Positions 1-15,060 of a DNA stretch of 64,000 nt are shown here, in pieces. Position numbers and translations under genes: made by a program. Every line of letters starts with the position of its first letter. Position 1 is the stretch's first letter. Under the pieces are notes generated by a model. The model was not told the origin of the DNA. It was given only the letters and a program-made list of their open reading frames with translations, and searched no databases. The DNA lies in the NCBI RefSeq assembly GCF_028356935.1, contig NZ_CP102798.1:1240001-1304000 (forward strand), in the 5' to 3' direction. This stretch comes from Lysinibacillus sp. OF-1 (GTDB taxonomy: Bacteria > Bacillota > Bacilli > Bacillales_A > Planococcaceae).

Positions 1-19
1 TTGAAGAAATAAAGAAGAA

Positions 20-50
20 GAGATTCCAATGCATTTTGGAATCTCTTTTT
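20..50. terminator. Rho-independent terminator, probably bidirectional
   Basis: A 10-bp stem (GAGATTCCAA pairing with TTGGAATCTC) is followed by a T-run on the plus strand and preceded by an A-rich tract. It lies directly behind the stop codon of the minus-strand pilin-like gene, so it can end that operon and also a plus-strand gene outside the window. Confidence 0.75.
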
Positions 51-1592
51 CTATTGTTCTACTAATTCATTTTCTTTTATTAAAGTAATAGGATCGCCAA
101 TTTCTGTATGTCCTGAAGAAGGTGGTTGGATTGTGCCTTCTGTAAATGTAACGGAAGTACCTCCATTAGCTAGTAAATTATCAGAAATAATAGCTCCTTT
201 AATGTGAGCGCCGCCTTCTAAAATGACAGAAGCATTTGGTGCAATAATATGTTGACCATTTGAGTTTGAACCACCATTAAAAGTAACCTTAGTTGCTCCT
301 GCATATATATTCCCTGTTAATCCTATCCCCCCTGTGAATGTTAAATTGGCTTGCTTAGAATAAAGAGAGGCAGCGCTTTGTGTTTCTCCTGCAATTGTGA
401 TAGCTGATGCTCCGTTATAATATAAATTTATTTGATTAGCATTACCGTTCCTGTTTAAAGATCCTTTTAGATTAAAAGTATTATTAATATATACATTTAA
501 CTTTCCTGTTCCTACAATTTTAATATGCCCCTGTAGTATATTAAAATCTTCGATATATAAATTTTTATCTGTATCTCCTACATTTATAGTCAACGTATTA
601 TTTTGATCCACTTTGAACTGTTTGAAATGTGTATCACCATTTAACTGTAAAGTATAGTTATTAGTCATCCAATTATCAGCTAAAAAATGTCCATTATTAA
701 TAATGAAGGTTTTGTTGTGTGGATCTTTGATGACTTCTTGATTTGGAGGAACAGGTAATTTTGATAATTGTTGCATTTTCTCTAATGGAAATAAAGGCAG
801 GATACTTGAACCAGGATATTTCCTACTTTGCGTAAGTTTGCTTGATAAATCCCCCATCCAAGATGGATATTGGAAATGATCACTTGAAGCACCTACAGTA
901 CCAGAAATAGATGAACCACCATCCAATGAAATTATACCGATGTCAGTAGCTACATCTCCCTTTATGGATGCCCCACCTGTTAGCTTAATATTGCCTTTAG
1001 TTTGTACTGCAAATTCAGGGGTAGCAGTATTTAAATTTTCCTCATCATCCCCACCATTATTATTAGTTGTTTCGGCATCAAGAACAAAGTCTACACTTTG
1101 CTGTAGTTCTCTTTTTTGTGAAGGCGATTCTCCATATGTACCGATAGAAGTTATCCAATATCGAAGATTCGTATCTAAATCCTGTTTTAGGGTAATCCTG
1201 GCAATAGGTTGCATTCCTAGTTGTTCTTCAAAATTATTTATAATGTTTTCGTTATTTAATAGTGGTTCTATTATGCTTTTAATATTCTCTTCATATAATT
1301 CTACAAATTTTTCATACTTTTTCTGTTGAATTGGTAAACGATCGTATTCTGCTTTTGCACTTTGATAAGCTTCATTCGCTTTTTCTAATAAAATTGCTTT
1401 TTCATAATTTACGCCTGCCTCAGCAATGTAATAAATGGATTGATCTTCTCGCTCATGTTTAGAGAGTTTTAAGGAATTTGAAGATACAGCAAGTAAACCT
1501 AGACCTAAAATCGTCACTAATATAATGGTTAAAAAAACTAATAAAAATGAAAAGCCTTCATCATTTAGTAGATTTTTTTTCATCTTTTGCAC
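51..1592 (-). CDS. PilX/GspK-like minor pseudopilin with large beta-helix-like domain
   Basis: Last gene of the three-gene pseudopilin operon. The N-terminus has a type III leader ending NDEG followed by FSFLLVFLTI and a hydrophobic helix (about residues 14-37), as in PilX_N proteins. Position 5 of the mature protein is Leu, not the usual Glu, a feature of the tip pseudopilin GspK. Residues about 40-170 are helical and charged. The C-terminal half is built of short Gly/Ser/Asn-rich beta repeats of the type ITGGASIKG and VTFNGGSNS, suggesting a right-handed beta-helix (DUF7305-like). I chose the GTG at 1592 because AGGAG lies 8 bases upstream; an ATG at 1583 is the alternative. It overlaps the preceding gene, so translation is probably coupled. 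Role at the pilus tip is inferred. Confidence 0.72.
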   Translation of the reverse strand: MQKMKKNLLNDEGFSFLLVFLTIILVTILGLGLLAVSSNSLKLSKHEREDQSIYYIAEAGVNYEKAILLEKANEAYQSAKAEYDRLPIQQKKYEKFVELYEENIKSIIEPLLNNENIINNFEEQLGMQPIARITLKQDLDTNLRYWITSIGTYGESPSQKRELQQSVDFVLDAETTNNNGGDDEENLNTATPEFAVQTKGNIKLTGGASIKGDVATDIGIISLDGGSSISGTVGASSDHFQYPSWMGDLSSKLTQSRKYPGSSILPLFPLEKMQQLSKLPVPPNQEVIKDPHNKTFIINNGHFLADNWMTNNYTLQLNGDTHFKQFKVDQNNTLTINVGDTDKNLYIEDFNILQGHIKIVGTGKLNVYINNTFNLKGSLNRNGNANQINLYYNGASAITIAGETQSAASLYSKQANLTFTGGIGLTGNIYAGATKVTFNGGSNSNGQHIIAPNASVILEGGAHIKGAIISDNLLANGGTSVTFTEGTIQPPSSGHTEIGDPITLIKENELVEQ

Positions 1593-2019
1593 CGTCACCA
1601 CTCCTAAAAGATAGTTGTGTAGAGATTGTGTGTTCGTTAATACTTTCAATATTTATGGAAATAGAGTCGCCAATACTTGTTAAGGAAAATGAGTGTATAT
1701 GAGTTGCAATAACCTCGTTGTTACGAGTAATCGTATTTTTTTCAGCATCAAAGATATATGTGTATTGAATAGAACCATCTCTGTTTTTAAATGTTGAATT
1801 ATTAGGATCATACGTAATGGTTTTTCTCATATCTTTCGTAATGAGCTTTAAAACATAAGACAACTCGGAAAGCTGTTCATTATTTTCAAGTTGTTTTTTA
1901 TTAGTTTCTTTGCTAGACGAAAGTATACTAAAAAGAATTGTTGAAACAATGCTTAAAATTAAGATAACAGCAAGTACTTCCACGAGTGTAAAACCTCTGT
2001 TATTTTTTATGAACCACAT
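1561..2019 (-). CDS. Type IV minor pilin / pseudopilin (prepilin-type N-terminus)
   Basis: The product (152 aa from the ATG at 2019, which has AGGAAG 7 bases upstream) starts MWFIKNNRG, then FTLVEVLAVILILSI. This is a classical prepilin cleavage site with Phe+1 and Glu+5 and a hydrophobic helix that packs in the filament core. The remaining residues (about 45-150) form a small globular domain with a GspJ/PilW flavour, which I cannot assign with certainty. It sits 4 bases behind the upstream pseudopilin gene and overlaps the next one, so the three are one transcription unit. Processing by the prepilin peptidase at 11068-11820 is expected. Confidence 0.75.
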   Translation of the reverse strand: MWFIKNNRGFTLVEVLAVILILSIVSTILFSILSSSKETNKKQLENNEQLSELSYVLKLITKDMRKTITYDPNNSTFKNRDGSIQYTYIFDAEKNTITRNNEVIATHIHSFSLTSIGDSISINIESINEHTISTQLSFRSGDGAKDEKKSTK

Positions 2020-2023
2020 GTAT

Positions 2024-2470
2024 TCACTTCCTACTATATATATTTTCCATCTTGCTTTTGAGTACATCGTTCTCATAAACTTCGATAACAATAGTATCTA
2101 GATATTCATATTGACAATGGCGCTTAATGGTTAGAATAAACCGTCTATCTTCCATCTGTTTTTCATAGCTCCAAATAGTTGAAAATTTACTATTTTTACT
2201 ACAACTAATATATTGAGGATTTTCTGTACTTGTATAGAGTAATTGTCTAGCTAGTTGTTCTTCTGTTCTGCCTTTGATTTCTCTAAATATATTTTCCATT
2301 TCATTTTGAGCAAGATAGGTAGAATCTACGATTGTGCTAGAAGTTTTGGAAGTTTTGTTAGATTGAATAAATAATCCGAAAAATGAAAGCAATATTATTG
2401 TAATTAGAATTAAAGAAGCAACGACTTCAATTAATGAAAAGCCACCTTCATTTTTAAAATTTTTTTGCAA
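2024..2470 (-). CDS. Type IV minor pilin / pseudopilin (prepilin-type N-terminus)
   Basis: First gene of the minus-strand pseudopilin operon (148 aa). It begins MQKNFKNEGG, then FSLIEVVASLILITI: a type III signal with Glu+5 and a following transmembrane helix (about residues 11-33). Two cysteines occur in the globular part. Start is TTG at 2470, supported by AAGGGG 8-9 bases upstream; no ATG with a ribosome binding site precedes it. The domain resembles GspI/PilV-class minor pilins by size and position ahead of a GspJ-like and a GspK-like gene, but that sub-assignment is inference. Confidence 0.75.
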   Translation of the reverse strand: MQKNFKNEGGFSLIEVVASLILITIILLSFFGLFIQSNKTSKTSSTIVDSTYLAQNEMENIFREIKGRTEEQLARQLLYTSTENPQYISCSKNSKFSTIWSYEKQMEDRRFILTIKRHCQYEYLDTIVIEVYENDVLKSKMENIYSRK

Positions 2471-2781
2471 TAATATCGCCCCTTATAAGTTTTTTGTGTC
2501 AAAAGAACCAAATGGTTATTTAGTGAATTATGTATTATGAAAAGAGTAGTTCAAAAAGCGTGATTCTAATCGACTAGTAATAAAGTATTCATAACGATAA
2601 TATAACATTATATAAGAGATAAACTAGTCTAAATCGTGAAATTTTTATATATTTTGAAGGGGTTATTTAAAATAAATTAGGTTTTTAGTAGTGTAATGTA
2701 GTAGTAAATATAGTATTCTAGTATCTGGATGAGCATAAAGTTGCAAACCAATAAATTACGATGTTTAAGGGGGATTGACAG
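2471..2781. promoter_or_regulatory. Divergent intergenic region between the two pilus operons
   Basis: 311 bases without a gene separate the minus-strand pseudopilin operon from the plus-strand pil operon, so both promoters should be here. It is very AT-rich. A 7-bp inverted repeat (GACTAGT at 2572-2578, ACTAGTC at 2623-2629) flanks a TATA-rich stretch near 2600, and could be an operator or spaced regulator site. I cannot assign -35/-10 boxes with confidence. Confidence 0.45.
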
Positions 2782-4113
2782 ATGAAAAAAATTATAACCA
2801 TTACTGTATTATTGATTGGAATATTTATACTAGCTGTAGTCTGTCTACCTAATTTTATAATAAATGGGAAAGTTTTTGCTAGTGATGAGACAAAAAGTTC
2901 AACAATTGGAGGTATAAAAGTCGGGGGTGTTAATAGTGCAAATTTATTACCAACTGTGGAAAAAGCAATTAAAGACTGGCAGCAAACAGAAATAAATGTT
3001 AAAAGTACTAATATCTCTAAGACCATTGACCCGAAACAATTAATTTTTGATACTACTACAGCCATATCACAGTTTGAACGGCTGACAAAAAAACCATGGT
3101 ATGCCTTTTGGAAAAATGAAAAAATTGTACATATCCCCATTCCTGTAACTGCCAGCGACACTGTTATTCAGGAACTAGATGAAATGGGCATTTTGGATAC
3201 TGATAAAACGCTTCAAAAAATAATAGTACAAGCAAGTTATTTGAAAGAACATGAGGTTGAAGCAGTAATCAATGCTGCTGCTTTGCAAATGCAAGAAAGG
3301 ATTGCCTTTCAAATTGCGGATGTACCGACAGATAGTCAAGGGGTTGCAAAACTAATCCCTTTATTAAATGACGTCACACTTGTACCGAACCAGTCATTCT
3401 CCTTGCTTTCACTTTTAGGGGAACAGGCTGGAGCTGCGAATGATACAGGTTTAGATTTTGTAGCTTCCATCCTCTATAGTGTAATTCTTCAGACAGAGTA
3501 TGAAGTTCTAGAAAGACATTCTCAACAAACAAAGCCCAACTATTTACAACTGGGGATTGAAGCGGATGTCAATGCTGCATTAGCGAAAGACTTACAATTT
3601 ATTAATCGTTCTCATCAGCTTGGCAAAATGCAAGCTACAATTGAGGGCAATCAATTAAAAATAGAAATATTTACAGCAGTAAAAGACAAAGATATAACGG
3701 TTCGTATCAGTAAAGATAAAATCGTTAAGCCACGAACTATTTACCGTTATTCAGAAGATTTAAAGGCTGGTCAAGAGCGTGTGGAACAAGAAGGGAAAGA
3801 AGGGGTGAGAGTTGAAGTTTATCGTTCCATTGTAGAGAACGGTGCAATGGAAGAACAGTTTATTAGCAGAGATTACTATGCGCCTCAAAATCGGATTGTG
3901 ACACGTTCATCGCAGGAGCCTATTACAGTCACTCCACCAACAAAAAACGCAGGGCAAAGTATAGCAGATCCTGATTTAGAGATAGATTTAGATGGCAACG
4001 GCTTACCTGATATAAAACCTTCAACACCTGAAGAATCTGAGCAAGAAGATGGACCAGAAATTGTCTATGGTTATTATGACAAGGGCGGTAATTTTGTACA
4101 AACAAGTCCATAA
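2782..4113 (+). CDS. VanW-like protein with C-terminal G5 domain, first gene of pil operon
   Basis: The 443-aa protein has an N-terminal signal anchor (residues about 4-22) and an extracellular remainder. Residues about 195-295 match the VanW family pattern (FSLLSLLGEQAG, then ILYSVIL and EVLERHS), but the usual GGGxCQ segment is missing, so it is a divergent member. Residues about 312-372 fit a G5 domain (LKAGQERVEQEGKEGVRVEV), a fold found on surface proteins that meet the cell wall. The tail is acidic and Pro/Gly-rich. ATG at 2782 has GGGGG about 10 bases upstream. Its stop is 17 bases before pilB. A role in anchoring or passing the pilus through the wall is inference from position. Confidence 0.7.
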   Translation: MKKIITITVLLIGIFILAVVCLPNFIINGKVFASDETKSSTIGGIKVGGVNSANLLPTVEKAIKDWQQTEINVKSTNISKTIDPKQLIFDTTTAISQFERLTKKPWYAFWKNEKIVHIPIPVTASDTVIQELDEMGILDTDKTLQKIIVQASYLKEHEVEAVINAAALQMQERIAFQIADVPTDSQGVAKLIPLLNDVTLVPNQSFSLLSLLGEQAGAANDTGLDFVASILYSVILQTEYEVLERHSQQTKPNYLQLGIEADVNAALAKDLQFINRSHQLGKMQATIEGNQLKIEIFTAVKDKDITVRISKDKIVKPRTIYRYSEDLKAGQERVEQEGKEGVRVEVYRSIVENGAMEEQFISRDYYAPQNRIVTRSSQEPITVTPPTKNAGQSIADPDLEIDLDGNGLPDIKPSTPEESEQEDGPEIVYGYYDKGGNFVQTSP

Positions 4114-4130
4114 TGATTGGAGGTATTTTT

Positions 4131-5801
4131 ATGGCGATGAAGCCAGGTCGTAAACGTTTAGGGGATTTACTTGTTGAATCAGGCGTTATTACAGCAGAAC
4201 AGCTAGAGTATGCACTGACTACTAAGTTGAAAAATGAGAAACTAGGTGATTTTCTCATTAAAGAAAACGTCTTAACGGAGCAACAACTCATTGAAGTTTT
4301 AGAATTTCAGCTTGGTATCCCTCATATTAGCTTAAATCAATTTTCAATCAGCCCTGAATTATTACAATTAATTCCTGCTGAGTTGGCAAAGCGGACAAAT
4401 ATTATGCCTATCCGCAAAGAGAAAAATAAATTGTTTATTGCGATGGAAGACCCGATGGATTATTTTGCTATCGAAGAAGTCCGTATGACGACAGGTTGTC
4501 AGATCGAAACAAGCATTGCTGCAAAAGATGATCTATATCGTACAATTACCAAATATTATGATTTGCAGGAGTCGATGGATGCTGCAATGTTAGATTTAGC
4601 GGCAACTAGTACTGAAACGCAAGACGAGATTGAGAATGAAGATTCACCCATTGTTCGTTTAGTAAATCAAATTATTGCCAATGGTGTAGCACAAAGAGCT
4701 AGTGATATTCATTTTGATCCACAAGAAACAGAGCTACGTGTGCGCTACAGAGTAGATGGAGTACTTCGTACAGAGAGGTCATTGCCCAAGCATATGCAAA
4801 ACGTAGTATTGGCTCGGATTAAAATAATGGGCAATTTAAATATTACAGAAAATCGTATTCCACAAGATGGGCGTATAAAAACGAATGTCAATTTTAGACC
4901 AGTTGATATACGATTAGCCACATTACCGACTGTCTTTGGAGAAAAAGTTGTTATGCGTATTTTAGATTTAACCAATTCGTCCAATGATATTGAGAAATTA
5001 GGCTTTAGTGCTACGAATGAAGTACTATTCAGGAAAATGATAAGCCGTCCCAACGGCATGATGCTTATTACTGGACCTACGGGTTCTGGTAAATCCTCTA
5101 CGTTATATGCAGCTCTTTCGCATTTAAATGAGGAAGGCGTCAACATTATTACGGTTGAGGATCCTGTGGAATACCAATTAGATGGCATCAATCAGATCCA
5201 AGTAAAGGAAGAGGTTGGCTTAACGTTTGCGGTAGGGTTACGTTCGATTTTACGACAGGACCCTGACATTGTGATGGTAGGGGAAATTCGTGATCTTGAA
5301 ACAGCGCAAATTGCTATACGTGCTTCACTTACAGGACATTTAGTGTTAAGTACGCTGCATACTAATAGTGCAGTAGAATCCATCTCACGTTTACATGATA
5401 TGGGCATTGAACCATTTCTACTATCTTCCTCACTTGTAGGCATTATGGCTCAACGACTTGTACGTAAAGTTTGTCGTGATTGTGCTGAACCATATGTATT
5501 CACCTCACGTGAATTAGAAATACTAGAGGAAAATGGGTTGGAAGGTGTTACCCAAGGTAAAAGGGGGCGTGGTTGTCCTGCATGTAATCATACAGGCTAT
5601 CGAGGACGTATGGCGATTCATGAAATCCTTCCAGTGGATCGAAAAGTGAAGGACATGATTTTAAATCGAGAAGGTGATTTGGTTCTTCGTGATTATATGA
5701 ATGACAAAGGCTATCACACCCTATTAGTAGATGGACTATTAAAGGTTGTAGCAGGTCAAACAACAACATCAGAAATTTTACGTGTTGCAAGTGTAGATTA
5801 G
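4131..5801 (+). CDS. pilB: Type IV pilus assembly ATPase PilB (GspE family)
   Basis: Cytoplasmic hexameric ATPase that powers pilin polymerisation. The 556-aa product has an N-terminal MshEN/GspE-N domain (about residues 5-150), a linker, and a GspE core with Walker A GPTGSGKSS (about 315-323), the Asp box, Walker B region ILRQDPDIVMVGEIRD and His box GHLVLSTLHTNS. A tetracysteine zinc motif (CRDC and CPAC, about 447-485) is typical of PilB/GspE and absent from PilT. I chose ATG 4131 rather than ATG 4113 because TTGGAGGT stands 6 bases before it; the earlier ATG overlaps the upstream stop. Second gene of the operon. Confidence 0.93.
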   Translation: MAMKPGRKRLGDLLVESGVITAEQLEYALTTKLKNEKLGDFLIKENVLTEQQLIEVLEFQLGIPHISLNQFSISPELLQLIPAELAKRTNIMPIRKEKNKLFIAMEDPMDYFAIEEVRMTTGCQIETSIAAKDDLYRTITKYYDLQESMDAAMLDLAATSTETQDEIENEDSPIVRLVNQIIANGVAQRASDIHFDPQETELRVRYRVDGVLRTERSLPKHMQNVVLARIKIMGNLNITENRIPQDGRIKTNVNFRPVDIRLATLPTVFGEKVVMRILDLTNSSNDIEKLGFSATNEVLFRKMISRPNGMMLITGPTGSGKSSTLYAALSHLNEEGVNIITVEDPVEYQLDGINQIQVKEEVGLTFAVGLRSILRQDPDIVMVGEIRDLETAQIAIRASLTGHLVLSTLHTNSAVESISRLHDMGIEPFLLSSSLVGIMAQRLVRKVCRDCAEPYVFTSRELEILEENGLEGVTQGKRGRGCPACNHTGYRGRMAIHEILPVDRKVKDMILNREGDLVLRDYMNDKGYHTLLVDGLLKVVAGQTTTSEILRVASVD

Positions 5802-5812
5802 GGGTGATAAAA

Positions 5813-6859
5813 ATGACATCTTATTCAATCGTTGAATTATTAACACGTGCGTTTGAAGAAAAAGCATCGGATCTTCATTTAACAAAAGGTATTCCGCCAG
5901 TATATCGTATTCATGGGCAGTTGGAACATTATGGTGCAGATCCATTAGATTCTGAAGAATTAAAGGGAATGGTAAATGCCATTCTCCCTGTACATAAACA
6001 ACAGGAGTTTGAGGGAAAGGGAGAAACTGACTTTAACTTTTCATTGCCTGGGAAATGTCGATTCCGTGTAAATGCCTATCATCAGCGAAATGAAGTGACA
6101 ATAGCGGCTCGTTTAATTGAAGCTAAAATTCCATCTATTGAAGCACTTAATATGCCACAAGTGTTATATAAGCTTGCGGAAAAACCACAAGGTTTAATTT
6201 TAGTAACTGGTCCAACAGGCTCAGGTAAATCAACTACATTAGCAGCAATGATTGATTATATCAACGAGACAAGATCAAAACATATTATTACGTTAGAGGA
6301 TCCAATTGAATACTTGCATACTCATAAAAAGTCTATCATCAATCAGCGTGAGGTTGGTGTCGATACAATGAGCTTTGCGAATGGTTTACGAGCATCATTG
6401 CGTCAAGACCCAGATATTATTTTAGTTGGGGAGATGCGAGATTATGAAACGATTTCAACGGCTATCACGGCTGCTGAAACAGGGCATTTAGTAATGGCAA
6501 CACTTCATACAAGTAGTGCACCAACTACAATCGACCGTATTATTGATGTATTTCCACCGCATCAGCAAAGTCAAATTCGAGTGCAGCTTGCGAATGTACT
6601 GCAAGGTATTGTTTCACAGCGTTTATTTATTCGTAAAGATGTAAAAGGGCGCATTGCTGCGACAGAAATTTTAGTACAAGCTCCTGCCATTTCGAATTTA
6701 ATTCGCAATGAAAAAATTCACCAAATTCCAAGCGTAATGCAGACAAGTAAAGCATTGGGCATGCACACATTAGAATCTTCGATGCAGCACCTGATTACCA
6801 CAGGTAAGATCTCGCTAGAAGATGCACGGCCATACATGAACGCTGGTGATTATAGTTGA
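5813..6859 (+). CDS. pilT: Type IV pilus retraction ATPase PilT
   Basis: The 348-aa ATPase is expected to depolymerise pili and drive twitching-type retraction. Walker A GPTGSGKSTT is at residues about 133-142, followed by the Asp box, Walker B region LRQDPDIILVGEMRDYET and His box GHLVMATLHTSS. The C-terminal AISNLIRNEKIHQ corresponds to the PilT AIRNLIRE motif. It has no tetracysteine zinc site and lacks the PilB N-terminal extension. Start ATG 5813 is preceded by AGGGGTG; the in-frame GTG 5804 overlaps that site. It lies 11 bases after pilB and overlaps pilC by 4 bases. PilT is unusual for a Bacillus-group genome, where comG systems lack it. Confidence 0.93.
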   Translation: MTSYSIVELLTRAFEEKASDLHLTKGIPPVYRIHGQLEHYGADPLDSEELKGMVNAILPVHKQQEFEGKGETDFNFSLPGKCRFRVNAYHQRNEVTIAARLIEAKIPSIEALNMPQVLYKLAEKPQGLILVTGPTGSGKSTTLAAMIDYINETRSKHIITLEDPIEYLHTHKKSIINQREVGVDTMSFANGLRASLRQDPDIILVGEMRDYETISTAITAAETGHLVMATLHTSSAPTTIDRIIDVFPPHQQSQIRVQLANVLQGIVSQRLFIRKDVKGRIAATEILVQAPAISNLIRNEKIHQIPSVMQTSKALGMHTLESSMQHLITTGKISLEDARPYMNAGDYS

Positions 6860-8061
6860 CTGTATTTCGTTATAGTGGTCGCACCAAAACAGGAGCACCT
6901 AAAAAGGGCATTATTGAAGCCCCAAATAAAAAAATTGCTATGGAGAAGCTTCGTGCACAAGGAATAAATGCGCGGGAGCTTCAAGAATCAAATAGCATTT
7001 TACATAAGGACATTGCCATTGGTACAAAAGTGAAGCACCAAGAGTTTGTTATTTATTGTCGGCAGTATGCGACATTAATTCGTGCTGGTGTCCCTGTCGT
7101 TGAAGCGACGCGTATTTTGGGTGAGCAAACACGGAATAAACCACTAAAGCGAGCATTGATGCAAGTTGAAGAGGATATTCGGAGTGGGATGGCATTTTCA
7201 GATGCAGCAGGTAAACATCCCAAAGTGTTTCCCTTGCTTTTTGTCAATATGATGCGTGCTGGAGAGGCTACTGGTAACGTTGACGACACATTAGATCGTC
7301 TGGCAAGCACACTAGAAAAGCAATATAACATCAAGAAAAAAATTCAATCGGCAATGACCTATCCAGCAATATTATCCCTTTTAACGCTGGTGGTTGGCAT
7401 GTTTTTAATGGTTTTTATTGTGCCTACCTTTATGGATGCATTTAAAGATATGGACTTAGAAATGCCGCTAATTACAGTTATTGTTGTTGGTATAAGTGAT
7501 TGGTTGATTCAGTTTTGGTATCTCGTGATTTTAGGGCTATTAGTGTTAGTAGTGGGATCACGTTATTTTTATAAAAATAATAAAGAGTTTCATTATACAG
7601 TTAATGTTTTGTTACTCCGCATGCCTATCTTTGGCCAACTTTTACAAAAAGATATTATAGCGAGAATGACGAGAACTCTATCTACTCTTTTTAGTAGCTC
7701 GGTGCCGATTTTACAAGCCCTAACGATTGTTGAAAAAGTCGGAGGTAATCCAGTTATGGGAAAAGTAGTGCTGGAGGCCCGCGATAATTTAGAAAAGGGT
7801 GGCACATTATCAGAGCCACTTGAAAAAAGCTGGCTATTTCCACCTCTTGTTACACAAATGACAGCAATTGGTGAGAAAACAGGCTCCTTGGATTACATGC
7901 TTGAAAAAATTGCTGATTTTTACGAGGAAGAAGTAAACCGTGCCGTCGATACAATGAAGTCACTTATCGAACCTTTAATGATTATAGTACTTGCTCTTGT
8001 TGTAGGAGTAATTGTTGCGGCTATATTCTTACCAATGTTCCAACTATATGAAAATATGTAA
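6856..8061 (+). CDS. pilC: Type IV pilus inner-membrane platform protein PilC (GspF family)
   Basis: Polytopic platform protein that couples PilB/PilT to pilin assembly. At 401 aa it has the usual PilC length, with two T2SSF domains (about residues 65-190 and 270-390) and hydrophobic segments near 168-195, 210-230 and 370-395. The sequences FVIYCRQYATLIRAGVPVVE and PLVTQMTAIGEKTGSLD are typical GspF repeats. Translation starts at TTG 6856, which overlaps the pilT stop codon, with only a weak GGTGAT upstream, so reinitiation after pilT is likely. Confidence 0.93.
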   Translation: MTVFRYSGRTKTGAPKKGIIEAPNKKIAMEKLRAQGINARELQESNSILHKDIAIGTKVKHQEFVIYCRQYATLIRAGVPVVEATRILGEQTRNKPLKRALMQVEEDIRSGMAFSDAAGKHPKVFPLLFVNMMRAGEATGNVDDTLDRLASTLEKQYNIKKKIQSAMTYPAILSLLTLVVGMFLMVFIVPTFMDAFKDMDLEMPLITVIVVGISDWLIQFWYLVILGLLVLVVGSRYFYKNNKEFHYTVNVLLLRMPIFGQLLQKDIIARMTRTLSTLFSSSVPILQALTIVEKVGGNPVMGKVVLEARDNLEKGGTLSEPLEKSWLFPPLVTQMTAIGEKTGSLDYMLEKIADFYEEEVNRAVDTMKSLIEPLMIIVLALVVGVIVAAIFLPMFQLYENM

Positions 8062-8148
8062 TTTTTAATTATATAAAACTTATTTAGAAATTGAATTAGA
8101 AGACCGTGTTTTCACACTTCATATAAAACTACTAAGGAGGAATTCTCT

Positions 8149-8634
8149 ATGTTTAAAAAATGGAAAAATAAAAAACTATTGAAAAATGAGAAGGGTTTAA
8201 CATTAGTTGAACTTTTAGCTGTAATTGTTATTTTAGCAATTATCGCAGCAATCGCTGTGCCTGCAATTGGTAATATTATTAATAAGTCAAAGGACCGTGC
8301 TATTTTAGCAGAAGCATCAAATATTCTATCTGGTGCTAAGATTGCTTATATTGATGGCGCTTGTAAAGGAGACAGCTCAGATAATGAGTGTGTGAAAGAT
8401 GAATTAGAAGCGTTTGTAGATGGTATTGAGCTAGGAAGCAATGATAAAGTAACGTATAACGAAAGTGAAAAAAAATGGTCAATTTCATATGGTAGATTTG
8501 AAGAGATTAAAACAGAGAGTCTCAAAGTTAGCTCAACTGCAGGTGCAATAACAATATTTGAAGAAGAACTTAATAAACTATTAAAAAGTGCAGGAGTAGA
8601 TAAGAAAAAAACAGAAAATACTAAAACTCAATAA
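8149..8634 (+). CDS. pilA: Major type IV pilin (PilA-like prepilin)
   Basis: 161-aa prepilin with a 16-residue basic leader ending NEKG, then LTLVELLAVIVILAIIAA with Glu at +5 of the mature protein and a long hydrophobic helix. Two cysteines (C72 and C81) bracket a short acidic segment and probably form a disulfide loop. The C-terminus is Lys/Thr-rich. It has the strongest ribosome binding site in the cluster (AAGGAGG, 8 bases before ATG 8149), 87 bases of untranslated DNA upstream and a large hairpin immediately downstream, as expected for an abundant structural subunit. Cleavage and N-methylation would be by the peptidase encoded at 11068-11820. Being the major subunit is inferred from these features. 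Confidence 0.85.
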   Translation: MFKKWKNKKLLKNEKGLTLVELLAVIVILAIIAAIAVPAIGNIINKSKDRAILAEASNILSGAKIAYIDGACKGDSSDNECVKDELEAFVDGIELGSNDKVTYNESEKKWSISYGRFEEIKTESLKVSSTAGAITIFEEELNKLLKSAGVDKKKTENTKTQ

Positions 8635-8647
8635 TCAGTCCTCCCAA

Positions 8648-8687
8648 CCCATTCAGAAACGATAATTTTCTTGCGTTTCTGGCTGGG
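8648..8687 (+). promoter_or_regulatory. Hairpin downstream of pilin gene (attenuator or RNA stabiliser)
   Basis: An imperfect stem: CCCA...CAGAAACG (8648-8661) pairs with CGTTTCTG...TGGG (8674-8687) around a 12-base loop. No T-run follows, so it is unlikely to be a full terminator. It lies 14 bases behind the pilin stop and 60 bases before pilM. Confidence 0.6.
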
Positions 8688-8746
8688 GAATGGATGACTA
8701 ATTGATAAAATCATTTATACTGAATAGGAAAAGGAGGTCTTTTCAC

Positions 8747-9721
8747 ATGTTTAAGAGAAAGAGAAAGTCGCATGTATCGATTGAACTGAAGGATTATGTG
8801 CTACGTGCGATTGTGGCGAAAGGACCTGAGCCTAGTCAATGGCATGGCTATGAATATCCTTTACCAGCTGATATTGTTGAAAATGGAGCAATCATAGATG
8901 AGGTGGCTCTTTTTGAAATTATTAAAGAACAGGTTGTGAAGTGGACAGGAAAAAAACAGGCTGTGCGTATGTTTGTGCCTGATACAACTGTTTTATTAAA
9001 AAGTTTCGAGCATCCTAAAGATGTTAAACCACAGGAATTACGAGGATATGCTGAAATGGAGTTGGGCCATTCTATTCATTTACCTTTTCAGGACCCGTTA
9101 ATTGATGTTTATGATCCCGATGCGGAGGACGGCAAGGCGATATTATTTGCTGCACCTTCAGAGGAAATTACGAAAATAGTAGGAATGCTGTTAGATGTCT
9201 CCTTGGACCCTGAAGCTGCCGATATTCGAGCCTTATGCAATATACGTTTGTTAGAACATATGTCAATGTTAGTGCCTAATAAAACATATTTAATTGCTGA
9301 GTGGTCTATCAATGAACTTTCCATTAGTATCTTTTCAAACGGACAGGTTGAGTTTTTACGTTATCAATCGATTGAAACAGATATGGCACAATGGCAGGGC
9401 AAAAAAGTCGATGAATTTAGCTACCAATTTCTCTACAATGGTGAAACCGAAGATTACCAGATGGTCGTCATGGATCAGGTTTTAGAAATTGATCGGATGA
9501 TGAATTTCTTTAAGTTTTCTTTACATAAAGGGGAAAAAACAGTAGATGAAATCATAATGCTTGGTGATAACCCGTTACTCAAATCAATAGGAACCTTATT
9601 ATCTTCTAATTTAGAGACACCTTTGATGATTGTTGATGGAGCAAAAATTGAAAAGTTCTTTCCTTATTTTAAAAAAGAATTTTCAACATTGCTAGGCTTA
9701 GCTTTGAAGGAGGTTCATTAA
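8747..9721 (+). CDS. pilM: Type IV pilus inner-membrane assembly protein PilM
   Basis: PilM is a cytoplasmic actin-like ATPase-fold protein that binds the N-terminal tail of PilN. The 324-aa product opens with HVSIELKDYVLRAIV, the first phosphate-loop strand pair of the FtsA/PilM fold, and contains VRMFVPDTTVLLK and a conserved-looking C-terminal GLALKE. Sequence identity to proteobacterial PilM is low, so the call leans on position ahead of PilN and PilO-like genes. I chose ATG 8747 because AAGGAGG stands 9 bases upstream; the TTG at 8702 has no site. The stop overlaps the next start (TAATG). Confidence 0.75.
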   Translation: MFKRKRKSHVSIELKDYVLRAIVAKGPEPSQWHGYEYPLPADIVENGAIIDEVALFEIIKEQVVKWTGKKQAVRMFVPDTTVLLKSFEHPKDVKPQELRGYAEMELGHSIHLPFQDPLIDVYDPDAEDGKAILFAAPSEEITKIVGMLLDVSLDPEAADIRALCNIRLLEHMSMLVPNKTYLIAEWSINELSISIFSNGQVEFLRYQSIETDMAQWQGKKVDEFSYQFLYNGETEDYQMVVMDQVLEIDRMMNFFKFSLHKGEKTVDEIIMLGDNPLLKSIGTLLSSNLETPLMIVDGAKIEKFFPYFKKEFSTLLGLALKEVH

Positions 9722-10314
9722 TGGTTCCAGATATAAACCTCTTACCACAGCTTGAAAAACGGTCTACTTCACCAAAGCTTTTTTATAGCTTGATAATTGT
9801 CATTGTGGGTCTAATAGCAGCTTATTTACTATTTATATTTTTTACAGCTAAAAGTGATTTGTCACGTTTAGCTGCTGAGGAAAAGACATTAACGACACAG
9901 CTTGAACAATTACAGCAAGAGTTAGATGTAAGACAAAGTGTTGATCAGGGATCATTGGAGGAATCTGTTGCCTATATTCAAGGTGTTTCTTATCCTGTAA
10001 CCCCATTAATTGATGAAACGAAAACTTTACTACCAACTCAAACATACTTGCGTAGCTACGTTTTTGGGGAAAATACAGTTACTATTGAAGTGGATTTTGA
10101 AACGATGACCGATATATCGAAATATGTAGAGCGACTTTTAATGAGTAGTTTTTTTACAGACGCACAAATTAATACAGTGTCAAACTTCGATATAGAGCTT
10201 GGCGAACAGAAGGAATTAACGCCTGAACAAAAATTTAAAGAAGTACCACGTTATTCAGTGTCCATTACGGCGACAATCGACTTTATATATTTAGCTGGAG
10301 GACGACGCTCATGA
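9721..10314 (+). CDS. pilN: Type IV pilus assembly protein PilN-like
   Basis: Bitopic membrane protein of 197 aa. The first residues, MVPDINLLPQ, match the conserved cytoplasmic PilN motif (INLLP) that docks in PilM. A transmembrane helix follows (about residues 20-43), then a coiled coil (about 45-75, TTQLEQLQQELDV) and a small alpha/beta extracytoplasmic domain. Start ATG overlaps the pilM stop by one base and the stop overlaps pilO (ATGA), so the three are translationally coupled. PilN and PilO form the alignment complex joining the platform to outer parts. Confidence 0.82.
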   Translation: MVPDINLLPQLEKRSTSPKLFYSLIIVIVGLIAAYLLFIFFTAKSDLSRLAAEEKTLTTQLEQLQQELDVRQSVDQGSLEESVAYIQGVSYPVTPLIDETKTLLPTQTYLRSYVFGENTVTIEVDFETMTDISKYVERLLMSSFFTDAQINTVSNFDIELGEQKELTPEQKFKEVPRYSVSITATIDFIYLAGGRRS

Positions 10315-11000
10315 ATAAATTAACGAGTAGTAAAAATTCATCTATTATCTTGTTATTGACTTTAATCGTTTCTATTTTATTTGCGCTTTATTATTATTTA
10401 TTATTACCAAGATTAAATGAAGTAGAAGCAAAAGAGAGTCATGTATCACAACTCCAGCAAGAGATTTCTAGTGTAAAAGAACAATTAGCTCAATTAGACA
10501 AGGAGCAGGGTCAGTCGACTATCAATGTTTTAGCGTTAAGACAGAAGCTACCTACAACAAGAGCTGTTGAAAAGATCATACTAGATTTAGCTGAGATTGA
10601 GGAAGTGACAGGAACACGCATAAAGTCATTAACAGTTCAAAATGATGATGCGGCTGTTTCGCAATCAGATGTATCGCAAGACCTTAATCTGTTGGAGCAA
10701 GCTGAAGAAGAGGTTAATGGTGAGCAGGATAACAAGATTAAGAGTTCACCGATTTCATCTATTTCAAAGGATTCCTTACCATCGAATTTAAAGTTGATTA
10801 CTTTTATATTAGAGGTTGGGGCGCTTGATTTTAATTCTCTAGAGAGCTTTTTACAAGAAATTGAACAATTACAGCGTGTGATGAAAACGGATACTATCGA
10901 ATTCAAATTGCCTGGAGAGCAGGATCAATTAGAAAAAGATACGGATCTTACTTTACAAGCTACCGTCCAGGTGACGACGTTCTATTACGAAGGAGAGTAA
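10311..11000 (+). CDS. pilO: Type IV pilus assembly protein PilO-like
   Basis: 229-aa bitopic protein with the PilO plan: a short cytoplasmic tail, a transmembrane helix (about residues 12-32), a coiled coil (about 38-65, VSQLQQEISSVKEQLAQL) and a C-terminal domain that ends LTLQATVQVTTFYYEGE, typical of the PilO ferredoxin-like fold. A Ser/Glu/Asp-rich insert occupies residues about 105-150. It is the third gene of the coupled pilMNO set and is followed by a long hairpin before the peptidase gene. Family assignment is by topology and order, since PilO sequences diverge quickly. Confidence 0.78.
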   Translation: MNKLTSSKNSSIILLLTLIVSILFALYYYLLLPRLNEVEAKESHVSQLQQEISSVKEQLAQLDKEQGQSTINVLALRQKLPTTRAVEKIILDLAEIEEVTGTRIKSLTVQNDDAAVSQSDVSQDLNLLEQAEEEVNGEQDNKIKSSPISSISKDSLPSNLKLITFILEVGALDFNSLESFLQEIEQLQRVMKTDTIEFKLPGEQDQLEKDTDLTLQATVQVTTFYYEGE

Positions 11001-11011
11001 TAATTGCATTG

Positions 11012-11047
11012 ATAGGCGTTCCATACTGCATCTGTATGGGCGCCTAT
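11012..11047 (+). promoter_or_regulatory. Long hairpin between pilO and prepilin peptidase gene
   Basis: ATAGGCG plus CCATAC (11012-11026) pair with GTATGG plus CGCCTAT (11034-11047) around a 7-base loop, with one bulge. There is no T-run behind it. It lies in the 67-base gap before the peptidase start and may be a partial terminator, a processing site or an RNA stabiliser. Confidence 0.6.
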
Positions 11048-11067
11048 TAGTTTAGGAGGACAGAAAA

Positions 11068-11820
11068 TTGGAAATGGCTTATACAATCTTTCTATTTTTA
11101 TTTGGGCTTGTCTTTGGCTCTTTTTATAATGTGGTAGGCTTACGTGTGCCACAGAAGGAGTCGATTGTACAACCTCCTTCACATTGTACTAAATGTCAAA
11201 GGCAACTGACGGCGCTTGATTTAGTGCCAGTTTTATCTTATGTGTTTTTGGGTGGAAAATGTCGGAGCTGTGGCAATAAAATAGCTTGGATTTATCCAGT
11301 AATGGAATTATTAACAGGACTATTGTTTGCCTTTGCTTATCGGCAGCTTGGTTGGAGCATAGAGTTTATAGTAGCCCTATTTTTTATTTCATTATTAGTC
11401 ATCATTGTTGTTTCTGATATAGCCTATATGCTGATTCCGAATAAGGTGCTTTTATTCTTTTTACCCTTCCTTATTATTGGACGAGTATTGTCGCCATTAA
11501 CACCCTGGTGGGACTGTGCTGTAGGTGCAGTCGTTGGTTTCGGCATATTATATAGTATTGCTGTGATATCAAACGGGGGCATGGGTGGAGGCGATATTAA
11601 ATTATTCTTTTTAATTGGACTTGTTCTTGGTACAATGCATACACTGTTAACATTATTTATAGCTGCAGTTATCGGCATGATTGTCGGGCTTGTCGTGTTA
11701 ACGAAGAACAAGCAGGGGAGAAAAACACCTATTCCTTTTGGACCTTCTATTGCATTAGCCGCTATCATTGTCTATTTTTATGGGGATTCATTAATCGATT
11801 GGTATTTAGGTTTTTGGTAA
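11068..11820 (+). CDS. pilD: Prepilin peptidase / N-methyltransferase PilD (A24 family)
   Basis: Polytopic aspartyl protease that cleaves type III leaders after Gly and methylates the new N-terminus. The 250-aa protein has the A24 N-terminal domain with two CxxC pairs (CTKC and CRSC, about residues 36-72) and the peptidase domain with the two catalytic Asp contexts VVSDIAYMLIPN and GMGGGDIKLF. About seven membrane segments are visible. TTG 11068 is preferred because AGGAGGA ends 7 bases before it; ATG 11074 would be 13 bases away. Last gene of the pil operon, and the processing enzyme for all four pilin-like proteins here. Confidence 0.93.
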   Translation: MEMAYTIFLFLFGLVFGSFYNVVGLRVPQKESIVQPPSHCTKCQRQLTALDLVPVLSYVFLGGKCRSCGNKIAWIYPVMELLTGLLFAFAYRQLGWSIEFIVALFFISLLVIIVVSDIAYMLIPNKVLLFFLPFLIIGRVLSPLTPWWDCAVGAVVGFGILYSIAVISNGGMGGGDIKLFFLIGLVLGTMHTLLTLFIAAVIGMIVGLVVLTKNKQGRKTPIPFGPSIALAAIIVYFYGDSLIDWYLGFW

Positions 11821-11853
11821 TTGTTCAATCTTCAAGCATATGGAGGGAAGCAA

Positions 11854-12576
11854 GTGAAACCGATTATTGGCATTACAGCCTTTGTGGAAGATGATTTATC
11901 CTCTCGATTAAATGCTGCTTACAGTAAAAGTATCATTGATGCAGGTGGGATTCCGCTTATTATTCCACTTGGCGTAGAGGAGGATGCCACACAAATTCTA
12001 TCCCTTACAGATGGTTTATTGTTATCTGGAGGCTATGACGTGCATCCATTTCTGTATGGGGCAGAGCCTGCACCAAAACTAGGGAAAATTCATCCAGCAA
12101 GAGATACGGTAGAGTTAGCATTAATTGAAGCGGCATTCACACGAAAGATGCCTATTTTGGGTATTTGCCGAGGCATTCAAATACTAAATGTAGCACTAGG
12201 TGGTACTTTATTTCAGGATATTGATAGTGACCATTTTAGTACTAAGCTGCTCAAGCATGTACAGCAATCTGCTCGAGCTGTAGCTACTCATTATGTACAA
12301 ATTATGGAGGAGAATTTATTAGCGACCATTTTACAACAAGAGAAAATAGCGGTAAATTCATTTCATCATCAGGCAGTTAATGTATTAGCAGAGAAATTAA
12401 AAGTAGCAGCAAAATCGAGTGATGGCATTATCGAAGCAGTTGTTCATGAAGAGTTGCCATTTTGCTTGGCTGTTCAGTGGCATCCCGAGGAACTAGCTAT
12501 AGCAGGAGATGAGCCTGCACAAAAATTATTTTCAGCCTTTGTTGAAGCTAGCTTAAAATTCAAAAAGGAAGCGTAG
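11854..12576 (+). CDS. Gamma-glutamyl-gamma-aminobutyrate hydrolase-like (class I glutamine amidotransferase, C26)
   Basis: Cytoplasmic class I glutamine-amidotransferase fold of 240 aa. The nucleophile elbow GICRGIQ carries the catalytic Cys, and the triad is completed by His and Glu in VQWHPEEL near the C-terminus. LSGGYDVHPFLYG is the usual PuuD/peptidase C26 loop, so it probably cleaves gamma-glutamyl amides. The substrate is not visible from the sequence. GTG 11854 is chosen as start because TGGAGGG lies 6 bases upstream; the earlier TTG abuts the pilD stop. It lies just after the pil operon and ends at a terminator, so it may be cotranscribed without being functionally linked. Confidence 0.82.
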   Translation: MKPIIGITAFVEDDLSSRLNAAYSKSIIDAGGIPLIIPLGVEEDATQILSLTDGLLLSGGYDVHPFLYGAEPAPKLGKIHPARDTVELALIEAAFTRKMPILGICRGIQILNVALGGTLFQDIDSDHFSTKLLKHVQQSARAVATHYVQIMEENLLATILQQEKIAVNSFHHQAVNVLAEKLKVAAKSSDGIIEAVVHEELPFCLAVQWHPEELAIAGDEPAQKLFSAFVEASLKFKKEA

Positions 12577-12590
12577 CAGGGGACTGTACA

Positions 12591-12621
12591 AAGAATCCAA
12601 CCATATATGGATTCTTTTTTT
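12591..12621 (+). terminator. Rho-independent terminator
   Basis: AAGAATCCA pairs with TGGATTCTT around an 8-base loop and is followed by a run of seven T. It closes the pil/amidohydrolase transcript. Confidence 0.85.
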
Positions 12622-12685
12622 GCGTAAAAAAGAGGATACATGCTCTTAGAAGGAACACATAATCCTCAAAACCTACTTTAAATGA

Positions 12686-13303
12686 TTAATGTACACGACG
12701 ATATAGTCCTACAACTTGTCCTAAAATAGAAACTTGATCGACGATAATAGGCTCCATAGATGAGTTTTCAGGCTGTAATCGGAAATGATTTTTTTCCTTG
12801 AAGAAACGTTTGACCGTCGCTTCATCCTCTGCTGTCATGGCTACAACAATATCTCCGTTATTAGCTGTTGCCTTTTGCTTCACAATAACTAAATCGCCGT
12901 CTAAAATTCCTGCTTCAATCATAGATTCCCCCATAATCTCTAGCATGAATAACTGATCCTCGCTTGTGCCATACGTATCTGGTAATGGGAAATATTCTTC
13001 AATGTTTTCAATAGCAGTAATTGGAGAACCAGCAGTTACCTTCCCCACAAGTGGTACATGAATGACTTGCTGCTTTTGAATAGACTCTTCAGGCTCTAAA
13101 ATTTCAATTGCACGTGGCTTTGTTGGATCTCGACGAATAAAGCCCTTTTGTTCTAATCGAGCTAAATGACCATGAACAGTTGAACTTGAAGCAAGTCCGA
13201 CTGCTTCCCCGATTTCACGTACTGATGGTGGATATCCCTTAGCTCGTACCTCTTCTTTAATAAAAGCCAAAATGTCCTCTTGTCTTTTCGAAACTTTTTT
13301 CAT
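12686..13303 (-). CDS. lexA: SOS repressor LexA
   Basis: 205-aa repressor of the DNA-damage regulon. It has an N-terminal winged helix (residues 1-65, with [20 protein letters not shown] as recognition region) and a C-terminal S24 self-cleavage domain. The scissile Ala91-Gly92 is in VTAGSP, the catalytic Ser127 is in GESM and Lys165 in ATVKRF, all intact. It is transcribed away from yneA, and the 166-base gap contains several sequences close to the Gram-positive SOS box, so it should be self-regulated as in Bacillus subtilis (DinR). Confidence 0.97.
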
Positions 13304-13360
13304 GAGTGCTCACCTCTTTTTTCTAATATCATTCTTCTTATTTGATAGTATAACAGAATG

Positions 13361-13451
13361 CGAACATGTATGCAAACATAGGTTCGAAAAGTGTTTGACA
13401 AAAACGTTTGTTCGCTTTATTATGAGAACGTACATTCCGAACAAACATTCT
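13361..13451. promoter_or_regulatory. Cluster of LexA (SOS) box-like sites between lexA and yneA
   Basis: Four 14-mers approach the Bacillus consensus CGAACRNRYGTTYG: CAAACATAGGTTCG at 13373-13386, AAAACGTTTGTTCG at 13401-13414, AGAACGTACATTCC at 13425-13438 and CGAACAAACATTCT at 13438-13451. Each has two to three mismatches. One overlaps the spacer of the yneA promoter and two lie just downstream of its -10 box, positions suited to repression. Confidence 0.7.
13395..13423 (+). promoter_or_regulatory. Sigma-A promoter of yneA
   Basis: TTGACA (13395-13400) and TATTAT (13418-13423) are separated by 17 bases, a near-consensus housekeeping promoter directed to yneA and embedded among the SOS-box-like sites. 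Confidence 0.8.
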
Positions 13452-13469
13452 AAAAAAGGGGTTGTAACT

Positions 13470-14467
<998 letters not shown>

Positions 14468-14484
14468 ATTCACAGTAAAAAATG

Positions 14485-15060
14485 CTATTGATAGGAAGCC
14501 AAACTGTCGATGATGATGTTAGTAGGTAGTTGAAAAGGATACTCTTTATTTATTCGATCATAAAACATTATGCCATTTAAATGATCGATTTCATGTTGGA
14601 CAACGATCGCCCCATAGCCCTGAAACGGCAAGATGAATTCTTGACCATCAATGTCATATGCTCTGACCTTAATACGTTCGTATCTTGGCACAAAACCATG
14701 GACAGGTCGATTAACCGACAGGCAGCCTTCTCCATCAGGTAAATAAATCATATTGAGGGAATGACTTATGATTTTGGGATTGATAAACACCATTTCATTA
14801 TGATCAAACAGTACAGCAAACATTCGTTTGTCTACACCTATTTGATTTGCAGACAACCCAGTTCCAGGGCGAAGCTTATATTTTTTGGCTAGCGTTGGAT
14901 CTTGGCTGTTTTTGAGATATTGCAGCATAGCTAATAAAGTATTTCGATCCTCTTGGTTTAAGGGTGTCGTCACTTCTTCGGTTTGTTTTCGTAATAATAC
15001 CGAGTCTTCTTTCACAAAATCTTTCATGGTAATGATCGAATCAGGAAGAAATTTAGTCAT
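14485..15060 (-). CDS. def: Peptide deformylase
   Basis: Metalloenzyme that removes the N-formyl group from nascent proteins. All three motifs are present in the 191-aa product: GTGLSANQIG (about 66-75), EGCLS (111-115) and the zinc site HEIDH (156-160). The insert LAKKYKLRPGTG before motif 1 marks the longer type 2 class common in Firmicutes. ATG 15060 is used because GAGGTG lies 7 bases before it; that site is inside the overlapping XRE gene, whose stop is 6 bases into def. It interrupts the usual yneB-ynzC adjacency and may be a second deformylase. Confidence 0.93.
   Translation of the reverse strand: MTKFLPDSIITMKDFVKEDSVLLRKQTEEVTTPLNQEDRNTLLAMLQYLKNSQDPTLAKKYKLRPGTGLSANQIGVDKRMFAVLFDHNEMVFINPKIISHSLNMIYLPDGEGCLSVNRPVHGFVPRYERIKVRAYDIDGQEFILPFQGYGAIVVQHEIDHLNGIMFYDRINKEYPFQLPTNIIIDSLASYQ

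Follow-up and report, generated by a model that had tools for sequence, protein, structure and literature searches.

A type IVa pilus locus of Lysinibacillus sp. OF-1 that encodes a retraction ATPase, and a VanW/G5 protein that co-occurs with it

In this study we analysed a stretch of 64,000 nucleotides from Lysinibacillus sp. OF-1 (contig NZ_CP102798.1, positions 1,240,001 to 1,304,000), which we call the window, and describe the type IVa pilus (T4aP) locus at its positions 51-11820. The host genome is one contig of 4.71 Mb. Twelve open genes make up the locus. They form two divergent units: on the minus strand pilV-W-X, and on the plus strand the gene of a VanW/G5 protein followed by pilB-T-C-A-M-N-O-D. 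The explanation that fits best, to which we would give a probability of about 85%, is a complete T4aP locus at one site, with a fibre that PilT would retract, a VanW/G5 protein as its putative wall part and a prepilin peptidase, PilD, that is probably shared. Pil operons with pilT were already known in Bacillales; what is new here is the co-occurrence of the VanW/G5 protein, the losses that spare pilD and the features of PilX.

Family matches, gene order and an ATPase tree confirm that the locus is intact, of type IVa and equipped with a retraction ATPase. PilB (T2SSE 452 bits, MshEN 75.5 bits), PilT (T2SSE 180 bits) and PilC (T2SSF) lie above the curated Pfam cut-offs, and PilT also passes the NCBIfam model pilT_fam (TIGR01420; Table 1). 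PilM, PilN and PilO are each above their Pfam cut-offs, N_methyl is found above cut-off in PilA, PilV and PilW, and PilD carries the A24 domains, so that class III prepilins and a peptidase for them are both present. In a tree of 48 ATPases, a 100/99 branch divides 22 PilT rows and E. coli YggR from 22 PilB rows; GspE, HofB and the ComGA of the host fall outside the PilT side and the PilB of the window falls in the PilB group; the exact placement of ComGA, HofB and YggR is unsure because of their long branches. A preliminary description of this DNA had listed pilB, pilT, pilC, a pilin, pilM-N-O, a prepilin peptidase and three minor pilins in two divergent operons, and all of these are open and lie where it placed them. 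It had also suggested a tree as a check on PilT, and PilT groups there with other PilT proteins, not with PilB, GspE or ComGA and not inside a clade of non-pilus ATPases, which together with the pilT_fam match speaks for a true retraction-type ATPase. Two scores weigh against the identification of the locus as a T4aP locus: PilB reaches 605 bits on TIGR02538 and PilM 52 bits on TIGR01175, both under the NCBIfam cut-offs (675.65 and 133, respectively). PilN and PilD stood outside the NCBIfam scan.

The same description had stated that Bacilli normally carry only comG-type pseudopili. Our counts do not support this. Of 151 genomes from the host family, 116 have a PilT above cut-off, and these cover 17 of its 19 genera. 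An even draw across the class, which weights small families up, gave 94 such genomes of 151, with 83 of 139 when the host family is set aside. What stands is the T4aP with a retraction ATPase in a Bacillus-type host; the surprise at finding one in Bacilli does not, because it is common there. The core locus is ordinary for the host family, and its description is the annotation of a known type of system and not of an anomaly. Imam et al. 2011 (PMC3244431) had already listed Bacillus sp. NRRL B-14911, Geobacillus and Exiguobacterium among the bacteria with pil operons, and stated that "a significant number" of the Gram-positive ones include pilT.

For the comparison within the family we fetched the loci of 79 of the 115 other PilT-bearing genomes. 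All nine plus-strand genes are present in 76 of these stretches, and pilV-W-X is found in 77. Among the three incomplete ones, L072 runs into the end of its contig; in L093 and L113 pilM is long and no separate pilN accompanies it. Lysinibacillus sp. KCTC 33748, 'Bacillus' ndiopicus and Ureibacillus chungkukjangi have their machine genes in the same order as the window. In the first of these the pilV-W-X set is reversed in orientation, and its PilT is 97% identical to that of G127, a genome from the same genus as the window. The right-hand neighbours of the locus are genes that we take, from their sequence and order, to be puuD, lexA and yneB. The locus adjoins puuD in all 18 pil-bearing genomes of the genus and is thus kept at one chromosomal site throughout it. 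A point against so orderly a picture is that rows of two other families (f8 and f14) are nested among those of the host family in the PilB tree and in the PilT tree; the history of the locus outside the genus is therefore not simple. We also observed two tandem pil loci in one stretch (L044, G037:C5:258000-277999), with PilT genes about 12 kb apart and each with vanW, pilB, pilT and pilC, and a second pilV-W-X set beside a single machine in six others (L042, L045, L051, L075, L077 and L087).

The VanW/G5 protein, whose gene had been overlooked in the preliminary description, is probably a part of the pilus and may face the wall, a reading that draws on its co-occurrence with the machine. It matches the VanW domain (PF04294) with 39.6 bits (cut-off 27) over profile positions 56-129 of 130 and the G5 domain (PF07501) with 42.8 bits (cut-off 23). 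When 43 of 81 homologous sequences were aligned, VanW was present in all 43 and G5 in 32. A homologue is found in all 79 other family loci and stands directly 5' of pilB in 75 of them. By whole-genome search it is present in 16 of 16 pil-bearing congeners, with the same-species genome G049 set aside, and in none of the nine congeners that lack the locus. Outside the family, where we fetched loci from 40 of the 83 PilT-bearing genomes of the class, a profile built from host-family sequences detects it in 20 of the 40, spread over nine family codes. An AlphaFold2 model built from four sequences (mean predicted local distance difference test score, pLDDT, 69) has one N-terminal helix, a C-terminal G5 domain and a C-terminal tail of low confidence, and the modelled G5 domain matches solved G5 domains (E 1.8e-7).

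Our more specific suggestion is tentative, and we would not put it at even odds: the VanW/G5 protein may be a component dedicated to T4aP in one large group of Bacilli with thick walls. It would then form a sleeve or anchor that is fixed in the membrane, binds the wall and allows a retracting pilus to pass through peptidoglycan where no secretin is present. What counts against it is that the profile search found no VanW in the other 20 of the 40 loci, so that VanW is not required for T4aP of Bacilli in general. It is somewhat unlikely that the gene serves wall maintenance and shares the operon without any role in the pilus. The loci without a VanW match would fit such a gene, as would the occurrence of G5 domains in unrelated surface proteins. 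However, its distribution among the congeners searched follows that of the locus without exception, and the host genome encodes a second VanW protein elsewhere that scores higher on the VanW model (165 bits) than the one in the pil locus. Among the open-licence papers that we consulted, none linked VanW to type IV pili, and VanW together with "G5 domain" gave no match in that literature; that we regard the component as unnamed depends on this search.

By homology, PilD would cleave the prepilins, and PilB would drive the assembly of PilA on the platform protein PilC, with PilM-N-O as a membrane subcomplex and PilT retracting the fibre. PilB is probably gated by cyclic-di-GMP: its MshEN motif, also missing from the preliminary description, passes the NCBIfam cyclic-di-GMP motif model NF053729 (58.6 bits, cut-off 38), which suggests binding of this messenger, and the host genome has 20 GGDEF matches, 18 of them in open frames and two with internal stops. 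PilV-W-X might form the initiating tip, on which PilX would bear a variable surface module. The VanW/G5 protein, for which a membrane anchor and an external G5 domain are predicted, may hold the pilus where it crosses the thick wall, or gate it there, standing in for the secretin-side parts of diderm bacteria, as its co-occurrence suggests. The single PilD would probably also process the ComG pilins. For the cell, the likely outcome is attachment to surfaces, together with pulling or twitching. The preliminary description had predicted dynamic pili for twitching, DNA uptake or adhesion; of these, DNA uptake is a less likely role for this pilus, since the same chromosome (G000:C1) has a comG operon near 2.94 Mb that encodes an ATPase of its own, ComGA.

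Mean pairwise identity, taken over 15 of the 18 pil-bearing loci of the genus (we set aside L035 as same-species, L036 as outlying and L127 for its split pilX), is 90% for PilT and 89% for PilB, and falls to 47% for PilA, 39% for PilV, 37% for PilW and 31% for PilX. PilX, a 532-residue modular protein that had been counted among three "minor pseudopilins", is best read as a fast-changing large minor pilin with a variable tip module. The glutamate at position 5 (Glu5) is missing from PilX in all 15 loci and kept in PilV, PilW and PilA in all 15. PilX passes DUF7305 (40.6 bits, cut-off 27) and stays under the cut-off of PilX_N (17.3 bits against 25.5). Among 79 of 86 pilX reading frames, the seven cut at stretch ends being set aside, we found DUF7305 in 32, PilX_N in 26, Bactofilin in four, an ice-binding-like adhesive domain in two and FapA in one. 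The AlphaFold2 model of PilX is solenoid-like and of low confidence (mean pLDDT 59). With this model Foldseek returned ice-binding proteins as best matches (E 6e-4) and a weak match to ComZ (E 0.13, TMq 0.15), so PilX possibly has a ComZ-like solenoid tip. In L127 (positions 1420-3062, genome G153) pilX is found as two pieces of 252 and 254 residues, broken or frameshifted.

The composition of PilA bears on the question whether this fibre is the conductive appendage of Lysinibacillus varians GY32. The long appendages of GY32 are 6-8 nm wide, and their composition was left open, with ComGD as a tentative candidate (PMC7969598). Their width and length would be compatible with a T4aP, and GY32 belongs to the same genus as our host. 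Aromatic residues make up only 4.8% of PilA, with none in the first 50 mature positions, against the aromatic-density criterion of the same paper, and nine of the 27 genus genomes are without the locus. We consider the identity of the two fibres improbable.

The nine genomes in question keep only pilD among the genes searched at the pil site, where it lies between the DUF2339 gene and puuD-lexA-yneB. In a tree of pilD, puuD, lexA and yneB they fall in five places, and since the outgroup rows carry the pil locus, five losses are the simplest count, although a count of changes on a tree cannot by itself separate gain from loss. In this tree L036 groups with the outgroup, the outgroup does not form one side of a branch and some forks are open. 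The gaps beside the orphan pilD (258-359 bp) favour loss, as they contain pilO fossils or retained flanks. Five of the nine encode fragments of the PilO end that were matched by none of 100 shuffles, which were intended to preserve dinucleotides, with plain shuffling as a possible fallback. Three others show no PilO fragment, but the pilO-pilD spacer and the terminator on the left are still there. A hairpin in this spacer is predicted in all nine pil-bearing loci that were folded and was seen by eye at six of the nine orphan-pilD sites; perhaps it uncouples the expression of pilD.

The single PilD probably serves the Com pilins as well, which would explain the sparing of pilD. PF01478 is found once in each of 26 genus genomes and also once in the 27th (G121), both peptidase motifs are kept in all nine orphan PilDs, and all nine pil-less genomes have a ComGA-like ATPase. 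Across the family the peptidase is kept in 34 of 35 PilT-less genomes. Several observations weigh against this account of loss and sharing. One further gap has a weak pilO fossil, to which four of 100 shuffles are as good, and the three gaps without a PilO fragment make up two of the five loss groups. T2SSE matches other than ComGA occur in the pil-less G063, G115, G145 and G152, where PilD may therefore serve additional systems. In the wider family, retention of the peptidase is not strictly tied to Com: G034 and G050 keep an A24 peptidase with no T2SSE match found, and in G103 a ComGA-like ATPase is present but PF01478 gives no match. In G053 (87% complete) PilT is present and a peptidase match is absent. 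As a separate observation, the pil-less G093 has its ComGA match in two parts separated by about 13 kb (G093:C12:8277-22120), as though an insertion had split it.

Five losses in one genus mean that the pilus is dispensable, and they would suit a cryptic or decaying locus retained by chance. Yet all twelve genes are open in the window, PilB, PilT and PilC keep mean identities of 84-90% among the 15 genus loci, and PilT is as widespread in the family as described above, which makes decay very improbable. Also very improbable is a comG-type or type II secretion pseudopilus without a long retractile fibre: PilB scores 599.6 bits on the GspE model and 605.3 on the PilB model, both under cut-off, PilC scores best on GspF and the minor pilins weakly resemble ComG and Gsp pseudopilins, but PilB stays below the cut-off of the ComGA model (262 bits against 300), PilT and PilM-N-O are present and adjacent, comG lies elsewhere and PilT takes a PilT position in the ATPase tree.

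The features of the locus are collected in Table 1. The DUF2339 gene on its left ends at window position 12, so the pilus locus is complete within the window, and a terminator-like hairpin lies between this gene and pilX. For pilX, Met23 (near position 1583) is a likelier start than the listed TTG, and pilW likely starts at Met25. The promoters of both units presumably lie in the spacer between them. An Rfam scan of window positions 1-15000 gave no matches at the gathering score.

Table 1. Genes and spacers of the pilus locus in window coordinates
Feature	Position	Strand	Description
pilX	51..1649	-	large modular minor pilin, 532 aa from the listed TTG; DUF7305 module, prepilin-like N-terminus without Glu5
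pilW	1561..2091	-	minor pilin, signal G/FTLVE; N_methyl 34.5 bits
pilV	2024..2470	-	minor pilin, signal G/FSLIE; N_methyl 21.9 bits (cut-off 21.2); TIGR02523 30.9 bits, under cut-off 52.2
divergent intergenic region pilV/vanW	2471..2781	.	311-bp spacer
vanW/G5	2782..4113	+	443 aa, first gene of plus-strand unit; VanW-like and G5 domains
pilB	4113..5801	+	predicted extension ATPase, MshEN / cyclic-di-GMP-binding motif
pilT	5804..6859	+	predicted retraction ATPase; TIGR01420 491 bits (cut-off 319.1), tree position
pilC	6856..8061	+	platform protein; T2SSF 235.6 bits
pilA	8149..8634	+	probable major pilin, long leader, G/LTLVE; N_methyl 30.8 bits
pilM	8702..9721	+	PilM_2 49 bits (cut-off 27)
pilN	9721..10314	+	PilN 24.6 bits (cut-off 22.8)
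pilO	10311..11000	+	PilO 25.6 bits (cut-off 22)
pilO-pilD spacer	11001..11067	+	predicted hairpin -24.3 kcal/mol, just 5' of pilD ribosome-binding site
pilD	11068..11820	+	A24_N_bact and Peptidase_A24; sole PF01478 prepilin peptidase found in genome

For the question how a pulling pilus passes through the thick wall of a monoderm cell, the VanW/G5 protein is a direct candidate on account of its family-wide co-occurrence and its G5 domain. The genus furthermore offers natural knock-outs, close relatives without the locus but with PilD, which can help to separate the functions of this pilus from those of the Com pilus. The locus is also a candidate source for the GY32 appendages, though its PilA is poor in aromatic residues.

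The Gram-positive operons of Imam et al. (PMC3244431) resemble this locus in having pilB, pilC, pilD, pilM, pilN and often pilT, with a com operon in the same genomes. They differ in that the main text of that paper contains neither "VanW" nor "Lysinibacillus", and MshEN and loss patterns were outside its scope. The host's own Com pilus is likewise a type 4 filament that probably shares PilD, but it is encoded at a separate locus with ComGA, and no PilT or PilM-N-O was seen beside comG. The T4aP of Streptococcus sanguinis is another monoderm system with PilM-N-O, PilT-driven retraction and large modular minor pilins (PMC6916266), whereas in the window the modular pilin PilX is without Glu5 and carries DUF7305. 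In S. sanguinis the Com pilins are processed by ComC (PMC10790768), whereas in our host genome one PF01478 peptidase was found for both systems. The nearest likeness to PilX may be ComZ of Thermus thermophilus (PDB 6qvi), a tip pilin of solenoid form that has Gly5 and was found closest to an ice-binding protein (PMC6561018): both are large minor pilins without Glu5, and PilX, according to its low-confidence model, would share the solenoid-like form and the resemblance to ice-binding-protein solenoids.

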